Assembly (NCBI GenBank): GCA_022953095.1
Contig: JALJCR010000001.1
Coordinates: forward strand, 1,398,501 to 1,462,500
Length of the DNA: 64,000 nucleotides
DNA from: Qipengyuania sp. ABI-127-1
GTDB taxonomy: Bacteria; Pseudomonadota; Alphaproteobacteria; Sphingomonadales; Sphingomonadaceae
Direction of reading: 5' to 3'
Shown here in pieces: positions 3,195 through 6,487 of this stretch; the first letter of the stretch is position 1; the number at the start of each line of letters is the position of its first letter. Below the pieces are notes generated by a model, which was not told the origin of the DNA, did not search any database, and saw only the letters and a program-made list of their open reading frames with translations. The translations under genes were made by a program, and so were the position numbers.

Positions 3195-4043
3195 TCAGGC
3201 GGCCTTGGCGGGCGCCAGATAGTCGAGCAGCGTCGCCAGCATGTCCTTCAGGTCATGCCGGTGGACAACCATGTCGACCATGCCGTGTTTGTGCAAATAC
3301 TCGGCGCGCTGGAAGCCGTCGGGCAGTTGCTCCCGGATCGTGTCCTGGATCACGCGCTGACCGGCAAAGCCGATGAGCGCGCCGGGCTCGGCGATATGGA
3401 TGTCGCCAAGCATCGCGTAACTTGCCGTAACGCCGCCCGTGGTCGGATCGGTCAACACGACGATATAGGGCAAGCCCGCCTCTTTCAGACGTCGGGTCAT
3501 GACGGTCGCCTTGGGCATTTGCATCAGGCTGAGGATGCCTTCCTGCATCCGCGCCCCGCCTGCCGCGGTCACCACGATATAGGGGCAGTGGCGGGTCAGT
3601 GCGCGTTCGGCGCCCTGGCAGAAGGCGGTGCCCACGGCCATGCCCATCGAACCGCCCATGAAGCCGAAATCCTGCACGCCGACGACCGCATGCTTGCCCT
3701 CGATCGCGCCCGATCCGACGAGGAAGGCATCCTTGTGCGGGCTCTTGGCGCGGGCCTTCTTGAGGCGGTCGGTGTATTTCGACGTGTCGCGGAACTTGAG
3801 CGGGTCTTCCTTCACTTCCGGAATGGGGAGGACCTCGAACCCTTCGTCGAGCAGCTGGCGCAGGCGCTCGTCCGCACCGATGCGACCATGATGGTCGCAG
3901 CGCGGGCAGACGAAGGCGTTCTCCTCATATTCCTGCGCGAACACCATCTGCTGGCAACTGGGGCACTTGACCCACAGATCCTTGTCGGTGCTGCGCTTGG
4001 ACAGCGAGGTGATCGAATTGCGGACGCGGGAGAACCAGTTCAT
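3195..4043 (-). CDS. accD: Acetyl-CoA carboxylase carboxyltransferase subunit beta
   Basis: AccD with AccA transfers the carboxyl group from carboxybiotin to acetyl-CoA to form malonyl-CoA. The 282-residue protein has the N-terminal zinc ribbon typical of bacterial AccD, with Cys27, Cys30, Cys46 and Cys49 (CPSC and CPRC), followed by the crotonase-fold carboxyltransferase domain with the GGSMG and [11 protein letters not shown] blocks that form the oxyanion hole and CoA site. Its start overlaps the trpA stop by four bases (ATGA), so it is probably translationally coupled to trpA; folC follows eight bases downstream. Confidence 0.97.
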
Positions 4044-4831
4044 GCCGCGCCCTTTGCCGCCGAATGGACCGCCTTGGCAAGTCCTGCGGTGAGTTCGCGC
4101 AAGTGTGCGGGGGCGTCCGTGCCATGCTCGGCGACCAGCTCGACCAGCGCCGAACCGACCACCACGCCATCGGCGACGCGCGCGATTTCGCCTGCCTGTT
4201 CGGGCGTGCGTACGCCGAAACCGACCGCGACGGGAATGGCGGTCGCGCGTTTGATGCGGGTGACGTTCGCCTCGATCGATTCGATGGCCGCCTGCTGCAT
4301 GCCGGTGATGCCCGCGACCGCGACGTAGTAGAGGAAGCCCTGGCTGCCCTCGACCACGGCAGGCAGGCGCCTGTCGTCGGTCGTCGGCGTCGCAAGCCGG
4401 ATCGGCGCGATCCCGGCAGCGCGCAGAGCGGGGCCGAGCGCGTCGTCTTCTTCGGGCGGGATGTCAACGCAGATTACGCCGTCGACGCCGGCATCCTTCG
4501 CTGCGGAAGCGAACCAGTCCGGCCCGCGCCGGATCATCGGATTGGCATAGCCCATCAGCACCAGCGGCACTTGCGCGTGGCGCGCGCGAAACTCGGCCGC
4601 GATGCGCAGCACATCGGCGGTGGTCGTTCCGGCGCCGAGCGAGCGGATATTGGCCTGCTGGATCGCGGGGCCATCGGCCATCGGATCGGTAAATGGCATG
4701 CCCAGTTCGATCACATCCGCGCCGCCCTCGACCAGCGCGTCGAGATTGGCCGCCGTGTCGCCATCACCCGCGGTGAGGAAGCAGACGAGGGCGGGGTGGG
4801 GCTTGGTGAAGGCGTTGGAGAGGCGGGTCAT
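4040..4831 (-). CDS. trpA: Tryptophan synthase alpha subunit
   Basis: TrpA splits indole-3-glycerol phosphate into indole and glyceraldehyde-3-phosphate and passes indole to TrpB. At 263 residues it is of usual length. The catalytic pair is visible as Glu42 and Asp53 in the block [14 protein letters not shown], with the same 11-residue spacing as Glu49/Asp60 of the E. coli enzyme. The phosphate-binding GFGVRTPEQ and VVVGSALV motifs lie near the C-terminus. Unusually, trpB is not directly upstream: a DUF559 gene lies between, and its stop overlaps the trpA start by four bases (ATGA). Confidence 0.97.
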
Positions 4832-5220
4832 CGAATGGCCCCCTCACCTTTAGGGGAGGGGGTTGGGGGAGGGGGCGTCATCCGATCGATAAGCACGCCC
4901 AGTCGATGAAGGACACCCTCCATATTCGACATTACGTCCGAATTCGAAAACCTGACCACTGCATATCCCTGTTCTTCCAAATACCGCGTCCGCATAACGT
5001 CGTAGCTTTCGCTGCCAGCGTGCGTATCACCATCAAGCTCAATCACCAGCTTTGGCTCATTCGCAGCAAAATCGGCGATGAATTTCCCGATGACCTTCTG
5101 TCTGCGAAACTTGATCCCGCGAAACCGCGTCGCTCTCAGTTCATTCCACATGCGAGCCTCGGGCTCGGGCATGCTCTTGCGCATATTCTGCGCGTGTTTC
5201 AGCGAGTTGGCGTCTCTCAT
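4828..5220 (-). CDS. DUF559 (Vsr-like nuclease fold) protein inserted between trpB and trpA
   Basis: The 130-residue protein belongs to DUF559, a family with the fold of very-short-patch-repair and related endonucleases. Conserved pieces are visible: PEARMWNELR near residue 20, FRGIKFRRQKVIGKFIADF, and the acidic LVIELDGDTH block near residue 58, which carries the putative catalytic acidic residues. Its last about 15 residues ([15 protein letters not shown]) are encoded by a G/C-run palindromic repeat, not by family-conserved sequence. A second, inverted copy of that repeat lies just upstream of the start. The gene sits between trpB and trpA, which are adjacent in most bacteria, and looks like a small insertion cassette. 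Biological activity is unknown. Confidence 0.88.
   Translation of the reverse strand: MRDANSLKHAQNMRKSMPEPEARMWNELRATRFRGIKFRRQKVIGKFIADFAANEPKLVIELDGDTHAGSESYDVMRTRYLEEQGYAVVRFSNSDVMSNMEGVLHRLGVLIDRMTPPPPTPSPKGEGAIR
4839..4876. repeat. Palindromic G/C-run repeat, left flank of DUF559 cassette
   Basis: An imperfect palindrome (CCCCCTCACCTTTAGGGGAG...) followed by GTTGGGGGAGGGGG. It encodes the C-terminus of the DUF559 protein. By eye it matches the reverse complement of the copy at 5222-5257 at 31 of 36 positions, so the two copies are inverted around the gene. Read on the plus strand it translates as PLGEGVGGGG, close to the [10 protein letters not shown] segment inside TrmD. Confidence 0.85.
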
Positions 5221-5221
5221 T

Positions 5222-5257
5222 CCCCTCTCCCAACCCTCTCCCCTGAAGGGGAGAGGG
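5222..5257. repeat. Palindromic G/C-run repeat, right flank of DUF559 cassette
   Basis: Sequence CCCCTCTCCCAACCCTCTCC continuing into CCTGAAGGGGAGAGGG. It fills nearly the whole gap between the trpB stop codon (5258-5260 on the minus strand) and the DUF559 start. It is the inverted partner of the copy at 4839-4876. On RNA from the minus strand it can fold into a hairpin (CCCTCTCCCCTTCAGGGGAGAGGG). Confidence 0.85.
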
Positions 5258-6487
5258 CTAGATATTCACTCCCAGCCGCTCGGCAACTGTGAAGATGTCC
5301 TTGTCGCCGCGTCCGCAAAGATTGGCGAGGATGACGCTGTCCTTCGGCATATCCTTCGCGCGCTTGGCAACGGCCGCGATGGCGTGGCTGGGTTCTAGCG
5401 CGGGGATGATCCCCTCGGTACGGCAGAGGAGCTGGAAGGCCTCGAGCGCTTCCTCGTCGGTAATCGCAGTGTATTCGACGCGCTCCATATCCTTGAGCCA
5501 GGCGTGTTCGGGGCCGATGCCGGGATAATCGAGCCCTGCGCTGATCGAGTGGCCCTCGGTGATTTGCCCGTCCTCGTCCTGCAACAGATAGGTCCGATTG
5601 CCGTGGAGCACGCCGGGGAATCCGCCGAGCAGGCTTGCCGCGTGCTCATCGCCATCGAGGCCGTGTCCCGCTGCCTCGACGCCGAGCATCTTCACGTCCG
5701 GATCGTCGAGGAACGGATGGAACAGGCCCAGCGCGTTGGAACCGCCGCCAATCGCCGCGACCAGCAGGTCGGGCAGGCGGCCGATGCGGTCCTGCATCTG
5801 CTGCCGCGCTTCCTTGCCGATCACGCTCTGGAAATCGCGGACCAGCTCGGGATAGGGGTGGGGGCCTGCGGCGGTGCCGATGATGTAGAAGGTGTCGTGG
5901 ACATTCGCGACCCAGTCGCGCAGCCCCTCGTTCATCGCATCCTTGAGCGTTCCGCGCCCGCTGGTGACCGGCACGACTTCCGCGCCCAAGAGCTTCATGC
6001 GAAACACGTTGGGCGACTGCCGCCGCACGTCTTCCGCGCCCATATAGACCACGCAGGGCAGGCCGAAGCGTGCGCAGACCGTGGCGGTGGCGACACCATG
6101 CTGGCCCGCGCCCGTTTCCGCGATAATGCGTGTCTTGCCCATGCGGATGGCGAGCAGGATCTGCCCGATGCAATTGTTGATCTTGTGCGCGCCGGTATGA
6201 TTGAGCTCGTCGCGCTTGAACCAGACCTGTGCGCCGCCCAGCGCCTCGGTCAGCCGCTCCGCGAAATAGAGCGGGGAGGGGCGGCCGACATAGTGTTCGA
6301 GCAGGTCGTCGAATTCGCGCTGAAATTCGGGATCGGTCTGCGCCGCGCGATACTCGCGCTCCAGATCGAGTACGAGCGGCATGAGCGTTTCGGCCACGAA
6401 GCGCCCGCCATAATCGCCGAAATGCCCGCGTTCGTCTGGCTGGTTGCGAAAGGAATTGGGTGTGGAATCGGTCATTGCGATCCCCAT
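5258..6487 (-). CDS. trpB: Tryptophan synthase beta subunit
   Basis: TrpB is the PLP enzyme that condenses indole with serine. The reading frame gives 409 residues; a second ATG four codons in (at 6475) gives MTDSTPN and may be the real start. The PLP lysine is Lys102 in HTGAHKINN, the ETGAGQHG and GGGSNA phosphate-cradle motifs are present, and the C-terminal GRGDKD block is intact. It follows trpF by 74 bases on the same strand. Downstream lies the repeat-flanked DUF559 cassette rather than trpA. The tunnel partner TrpA is encoded about 430 bases further on. Confidence 0.97.

Follow-up and report, generated by a model that had tools for sequence, protein, structure and literature searches.

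A DUF559 nuclease gene between inverted intrastrand-triplex repeats at a trpB-trpA junction: a probable mobile cassette of REP/RAYT-like organization

Between trpB and trpA, in a stretch of 64,000 nucleotides from Qipengyuania sp. ABI-127-1 (assembly GCA_022953095.1, contig JALJCR010000001.1, positions 1,398,501 to 1,462,500; hereafter the window), a gene for a DUF559 protein is enclosed by two inverted copies of one repeat. This arrangement is probably a single copy of a small mobile element, composed of the nuclease gene and of two inward-facing intrastrand-triplex repeats. The reading which we favor, with fair confidence, is that of a mobile cassette which resembles repetitive extragenic palindromic (REP) sequences and their REP-associated tyrosine transposases (RAYTs) and which is built on an unrelated nuclease. 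The layout, its generality, the co-variation of gene and repeat and the occurrence of full as well as mini copies, several per genome in one case, are directly observed, as is the state of the active-site motif, which is intact in repeat-bounded copies and lost in repeat-free paralogues at the suf locus. The locus comprises the following features (positions within the window):

4828-5220, minus strand: DUF559 (PD-(D/E)XK, Vsr-like) nuclease gene, 130 amino acids, an open reading frame with a PF04480 match
5222-5258, minus strand: trpB-side end of the cassette, a repeat copy whose blocks were assigned by reading the sequence
4838-4874, plus strand: trpA-side end of the cassette, an inverted copy of the same repeat, encoding most of the DUF559 C-terminus
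5258-6487, minus strand: trpB, the upstream neighbor, with its stop at the cassette border, identified by translation
4040-4831, minus strand: trpA, the downstream neighbor, identified by translation

The original prediction, made from the letters alone, had recognized a DUF559 gene at this place, and the protein matches PF04480 (DUF559) with an E-value of 9e-36. It had also reported bounding inverted repeats with 31 of 36 positions alike; they are confirmed, with 32 of 37 positions alike in the inverted alignment, borders displaced by one or two bases and a cassette length of 421 base pairs (bp) by the alignment used. As proposed, the trpB-side copy lies at the trpB stop and begins with the G of the stop codon TAG. 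It comprises in order a pyrimidine block (5257-5248), a loop (5247-5244), a purine block (5243-5234), a linker (5233-5232) and a mirror purine block (5231-5222), and this final, Shine-Dalgarno-like block directly precedes the DUF559 ATG. In the window repeat the third block, GGGAGAGGGG, mirrors the second one, GGGGAGAGGG, which is the geometry of an intrastrand triplex. The trpA-side copy indeed codes for most of the C-terminal stretch PPPPTPSPKGEG, but its supposed overlap with the trpA start has to be corrected: 6 bases separate the copy from the trpA ATG, so that it abuts the gene, and it is the DUF559 stop which overlaps the trpA start, as ATGA. In the genome of 3.15 megabases the pattern CCCTCTCCCCTNAAGGGGAGAGGG matches, when up to 3 mismatches are allowed, the two copies of the window only, and a control pattern gives 0 matches. 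A related repeat pattern, which itself recovers the trpB-side copy only, has 0 matches in 100 shuffles of the window.

The position of the two copies, one immediately ahead of the DUF559 start codon and the other of trpA, would also suit terminators or ribosome-binding modules placed around an ordinary accessory gene. We regard this explanation as very improbable, as it leaves the class-specific matching and the gene-free copies described below unexplained; furthermore, the E. coli triplex motif had neither promoter nor terminator activity in an earlier study, as cited in the text of PMC4666352. An Rfam search for structured RNA returned nothing up to an E-value of 0.1. A known anti-phage defense system was rejected as a candidate (0 families in a PADLOC profile search), and PHROGs gave four weak matches (E-values 7e-5 to 4e-4), one of them named HNH endonuclease.

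Repeat-bounded DUF559 genes are not confined to this locus. A PF04480 search of 60 same-genus genomes separated three classes of match: strong (at least 79 bits, 54 genes in 29 genomes), middle (about 46-63 bits, present in most of the genomes) and weak. Counting a gene as bounded when the best inverted repeat between its flanks scores at least 16, inverted repeats were found at the ends of 48 of the 54 strong genes and at 0 of the 47 shifted controls available. All 19 middle-class loci fetched, a subset of the matches in that class, lie between sufB and sufC and served as controls; only one (L004) reaches the threshold, with a score of 30 due to different palindromes lying further out. A scan of a wider collection gave at least 80 loci; of the 80 retained, 79 were usable (L247 has no flank); here 54 of 79 loci have inverted repeats versus 2 of 223 shifted controls, among the matches listed, a scope which holds for all collection counts. 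The bounded loci belong to Sphingomonads, Rhizobiales, Burkholderiales, a Pasteurellaceae member and others. In a further set of 12 loci, picked from 44 plasmid or phage database records with a match (four others had been opened earlier), the inverted score is at least 20 at all four Deinococcus loci, at two of four cyanobacterial loci and at one locus each of Azospirillum and Sinorhizobium. The expectation that related DUF559 genes would be flanked by inverted repeats is therefore largely borne out, and the repeat-bounded nuclease cassette occurs across Proteobacteria and some other phyla. Chance or base composition, for which the G/C-rich genomes and the low complexity of the repeats might speak, can be practically dismissed because the shifted controls at the same loci are nearly empty and the window shuffles have no match.

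Two observations stand beside these counts. The palindromes further out around L004 start with CGTC, recalling the CGTC REPs in the text of PMC3733652. In addition, the third, weak DUF559 class (about 21-40 bits) recurs in the genus, and its member L005 in the window genome follows, by eye, a cysS-like reading frame.

The repeats themselves have a common architecture. Typically, a pyrimidine block is followed by a loop, a complementary purine block, a linker (plain or itself a hairpin) and a mirrored purine block. By this block order, the DUF559-bounding repeats match at the sequence level the intrastrand triplex motif which Holder et al. described in 2015 (PMC4666352); their text gives 23 copies in E. 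coli MG1655 and five inverted pairs, and inverted pairs are common to both. Using a motif finder for the order Y-loop-R-linker-R' (R' being the mirror of R) up to 260 bp from DUF559, the motif was located near 50 of 51 strong genus genes and 63 of 78 collection loci (those with enough flank out of 54 and 79), as well as 29 of 29 family and 29 of 30 phylum loci, the latter two sets being best-scoring matches and no random samples. Inward motifs at both ends are present at 43/51, 47/78, 25/29 and 10/30 loci, respectively. Shifted controls gave 0-4 positives per set, and within 260 bp of the suf-site genes there was no motif (0/19). Among 181 asymmetric purine blocks, the third block fits a mirror better than a direct copy in 70 and worse in 5, with 106 ties.

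According to the text of PMC4666352, triplex formation in vitro was demonstrated for TM_ECO itself, footprints did not support a stable triplex in vivo, and the motifs were linked to raised instability with no enzyme named; the word endonuclease appears nowhere in the main text. The authors also report that the motifs are not associated with mobile elements and that the neighboring genes follow no functional trend, whereas here the motifs bound DUF559 genes. No link between intrastrand triplex motifs and DUF559 was found in the literature searched, which was mostly open-access and did not extend to preprints on bioRxiv, and the titles and abstract openings of the DUF559 literature point to no work on bounding repeats.

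Gene and repeat vary together. Sorted by their flanking genes, the 101 bounded cassettes represent 36 site groups; genes scoring below 16 (6/54 in the genus, 25/79 in the collection) are excluded, and L192 was dropped as a duplicate of L047, here as in the triplex-motif and active-site counts. For pairs of cassettes at different sites, DUF559 similarity correlates with repeat similarity (Spearman rho 0.42, 0 of 500 permutations as high), and the correlation persists with one cassette per site (36 sites, rho 0.30, 0 of 2000 permutations as high). For 57 of the 101 cassettes, the cassette's own right repeat is the best match among those of other sites. The same is true of 20 of 23 cassettes compared within six genomes, a test restricted to the copies fetched (e.g. 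6/10 in G144 and 5/7 in G204). The repeats therefore track the DUF559 genes, as had been anticipated.

Repeat copies also exist away from the gene. Two repeat classes occupy 142 places in the genus (both strands of one place counted as one; G000:C1:1403339 was added from an earlier pattern search), of which 36 are next to a strong DUF559 gene; the other 106 are away from one, and 50 of these form close pairs. Gene-free inverted repeat pairs were found at other places, and they span 88-312 bp. Among the 29 genomes with a strong gene, 20 have copies away from DUF559, versus 5 of the 31 without (Fisher p 6e-5, in a genome-level test which ignores phylogeny and is to that extent a weakness of the mobile-cassette reading). 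A free occurrence of the repeats without any tie to DUF559 had been named as what would overturn the original prediction; most places are indeed away from the gene, yet the genomes concerned more often carry it.

Occupancy of the trpB-trpA junction varies among relatives. TrpB is matched in 59 of 60 same-genus genomes, and 57 junctions could be read: 8 contain the cassette, 5 are tight 4-bp overlaps and 1 has a 5-bp gap, while most of the remaining ones contain unrelated inserts, with gaps of 135 to 991 bases. At the family level, at least 12 of 149 junctions harbor the cassette. Furthermore, a lone hairpin is present at or near the trpB stop in two genus junctions (G033, G040), and in the family genome G176 a lone hairpin stands where its genus mate G099 has a cassette. 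Outside this junction, a stretch of 7 kilobases on contig 31 of G372 (L385) contains four copies of one DUF559 element, two of them full (588 and 592 bp) and two of them mini (312 and 296 bp); they share ends of about 100 bp and their matches stop at the element borders, with no regular target duplication in the four copies. In one Deinococcus species the cassette lies between an oxidoreductase gene and hpaE, and in a second species between hpaB and that oxidoreductase gene, the oxidoreductase-hpaE junction being there a 4-bp overlap; the cassette proteins at these differing junctions of one gene cluster are 88% identical.

The trpB-trpA junctions show further peculiarities. In many of those in the genus (loci L096-L147), the bases directly ahead of trpA are similar (GGACAGTGTAACA...). 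At L171, 34 bp of the trpA start are repeated on the other side of the cassette, and at L025 19 bp; at L283 the trpA start (at least amino acids 1-53) recurs beyond the cassette or beyond an additional insert. These repeats look as if junction breaks had been repaired with duplication.

In 70 aligned DUF559 proteins, E61, D63, G64 and H67 are invariant, and the corresponding E.DG..H motif is kept in 53/54 strong genes of the genus and 78/79 genes of the collection. It is absent from the suf-site paralogues (0/19). The predicted structure (pLDDT, the predicted local distance difference test score, of 88) retrieves NGO0050 (3hrl) in Foldseek with an E-value of 3e-8, the catalytic domain of the homing endonuclease I-Bth0305I (3r3p) with 9e-5 and, more weakly, the mismatch-repair nuclease Vsr (1vsr) with 0.014; only three entries reach 0.001. 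A profile search gives 3e-36 for 3hrl and 4e-5 for I-Bth0305I, so that a relationship to this EDxHD homing endonuclease is found in both fold and sequence. Unlike Vsr and the EDxHD homing enzymes, the window cassette lacks an intron and is bounded by a repeat class of its own, and homing would be putative. NGO0050, YcjD (treated as a PD-(D/E)XK member in the text of PMC1189080) and the Caulobacter protein VsrA share a Pfam family or superfamily with the window protein; the source passages available describe them as orphan or repair nucleases and mention there neither mobility nor bounding repeats.

DUF559 might instead be a host repair enzyme for triplex or hairpin DNA, the repeats having spread by replication slippage or recombination and the copies near the gene being regulatory or tolerated. 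This would agree with the DNA-damage context of VsrA, which according to the relevant part of PMC12907096 is responsible for an SOS response when a methyltransferase is absent, and with the enzyme-free account of triplex-linked instability in PMC4666352. We find it improbable, as it leaves unexplained the class-specific inverted pairs at both ends, the multi-copy full elements and the patchy sites; in addition, the suf-locus paralogues tested have neither the triplex motif nor the active-site motif. The sufB-sufC site of the window's genus holds a repeat-free DUF559 copy without the active-site motif. Since a plasmid of Sphingomonas parapaucimobilis (L300) carries a DUF559 gene with a repeat pair between sufB and sufC, and three of the strong loci in the genus are likewise situated at suf genes, the repeat-free copies there may descend from bounded ones which settled and decayed.

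The favored mobile-cassette reading draws on a comparison with known systems. The original prediction had likened the layout to a minimal mobile unit of the RAYT/REP type, and the gene-repeat association, the tracking and the patchy sites support this likeness, the role of the enzyme being what we infer. As in RAYT systems, a single small enzyme gene is located between inverted palindromic repeats of its own class; as with REPs and their paired forms (REPINs), gene-free inverted pairs are found elsewhere; and one genome can carry several repeat classes, the window genome containing three strong DUF559 genes, each with its own class. In contrast, the RAYT enzyme is an HUH Y1 transposase (PF01797) whereas the window enzyme is PD-(D/E)XK/Vsr-like (PF04480), and the window repeats differ from REPs by their mirror third block. 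A GTAG tag next to the hairpin is part of the REP definition in the text of PMC3733652; GTAG or CTAC is not enriched in the repeat zones (8 left and 7 right in 101 cassettes versus 15 and 8 outside). A RAYT as the source of the repeats was rejected for the own genome, which contains no PF01797, and is unlikely in the genus (5/60). The full and mini forms with common ends in G372 recall insertion sequences and miniature inverted-repeat transposable elements (MITEs); the cassette differs from both in having neither a classical transposase nor regular target duplication (counts below).

How such a cassette could spread can be outlined in a few steps. The nuclease would recognize its own repeat class when this is folded into a hairpin or triplex, and nick or break the DNA there. 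Repair or replication might then copy the cassette to new places, often junctions of neighboring genes, where the repeat could supply part of a stop codon and a ribosome-binding stretch, as at trpB and DUF559. Gene-free pairs would be non-autonomous derivatives, comparable to REPINs relative to RAYTs. Recognition, cutting and copying are all proposed from the comparative evidence, and we infer that a nuclease driving the spread by acting on its own repeat is the likeliest mechanism.

E. coli offers a possible laboratory counterpart. Its DUF559 gene, ycjD, lies between sapF and fabI; out of 5426 E. coli genomes searched with a 321-base query, 3364 contain a match over at least 80% of the query length. 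In strain H240, whose ycjD region is 99.8% identical to that of MG1655 over 801 bases, the nearby repeat matches 26 places in the chromosome, its own included; out of 20 places opened, 5 have a weaker copy in opposite direction at most 150 bases away. E. coli repeats have reportedly been named RSA by Rudd in 1999. The repeat near ycjD resembles the motif of PMC4666352, as compared with the text of that paper and not with its sequence table.

Several results weigh against the mobile-cassette reading. At ycjD, the inverted repeat pair lies downstream only, and no clean empty site was seen, as the one strain without ycjD that was opened there has other genes. By score, 6 of 54 strong genus genes lack an inverted pair, although all six form one site group in which the upstream repeat is still there; 25 of 79 collection loci lack it as well, including most of the Chloroflexi ones, two of the four cyanobacterial loci have no strong inverted pair, and the Streptomyces and phage loci of the 12-locus set have no repeats. 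The Deinococcus motif largely reads outward rather than inward. Empty sites and target duplications had been proposed as a check: the five tight overlaps and the patchy occupancy speak for the former, and the latter are irregular, as only 7 of 97 cassettes score at least 10 versus 2.0% of unrelated flank pairs, a weak excess to which L171 and L025 are striking exceptions. Cassettes of a given clade in the genus mostly occupy one orthologous site, a distribution which vertical descent with loss would also give. In addition, DUF559 and TrpA identities are correlated at the trpB-trpA junction (rho 0.48 over 23 of 24 loci, L283 having no usable match and L287 replacing L168 at the same junction), with at least 1 of 1000 permutations higher (0.55). 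Simple vertical descent at trpB-trpA is neither excluded nor demonstrated. Lastly, a comparison of G000 with G005 gives 97-99% identity for the cassette, 85-94% for the preceding 750 bases and 73-91% for trpA, a difference in favor of mobility; from 750 to 1350 bases upstream, identity returns to 93-98%, so that the region is a mosaic. This mosaic weakens one line of evidence, that from the G000-G005 cassette, and the suf-site control strengthens another; our overall estimate is unchanged.

The same facts bear on a free-standing homing endonuclease, which would cut the uninserted junction (e.g. trpB-trpA) and be copied, cassette and all, from the filled allele, the repeats being borders and not substrate. 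This alternative appears rather unlikely, albeit worth serious consideration: the nearest characterized enzyme by fold is I-Bth0305I, clades of the genus keep largely to one site, and the G000-G005 cassette is more identical than its nearest flanks. Homing accounts poorly for repeats which track the enzyme over 36 sites, for gene-free pairs elsewhere and for a genome with four copies at different places in 7 kilobases; genus cassettes are faithful to their site, yet 36 site groups exist overall.

Under the mobile-cassette reading, a wider proposal can be made, tentatively and at somewhat less than even likelihood: DUF559 nucleases might be the missing mobilizing enzymes of bacterial intrastrand-triplex repeats, including those of E. 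coli (ycjD with TM_ECO-like repeats) and probably of Deinococcus and cyanobacteria, a Vsr-fold nuclease reading a triplex or hairpin, unlike a transposase which reads terminal sequence. The finding joins two orphans, the widespread DUF559 family of unknown role (E. coli ycjD) and a triplex repeat class, also widespread, which has been tied to genome instability. If true, the spread of many short bacterial repeats could be tested in laboratory E. coli, and mobile DNA would gain a repeat-enzyme pair with a non-transposase enzyme.

Some database records deserve a remark. L173, from a record titled Bacillus sp. 2B10, is a Sphingomonad-like trpB-DUF559-trpA locus, and the record is probably mislabelled. 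Furthermore, the plasmid collection lists chromosome-sized E. coli and Neisseria records as plasmids (NZ_CP141089.1, NZ_OL790696.1, NZ_CP119142.1).
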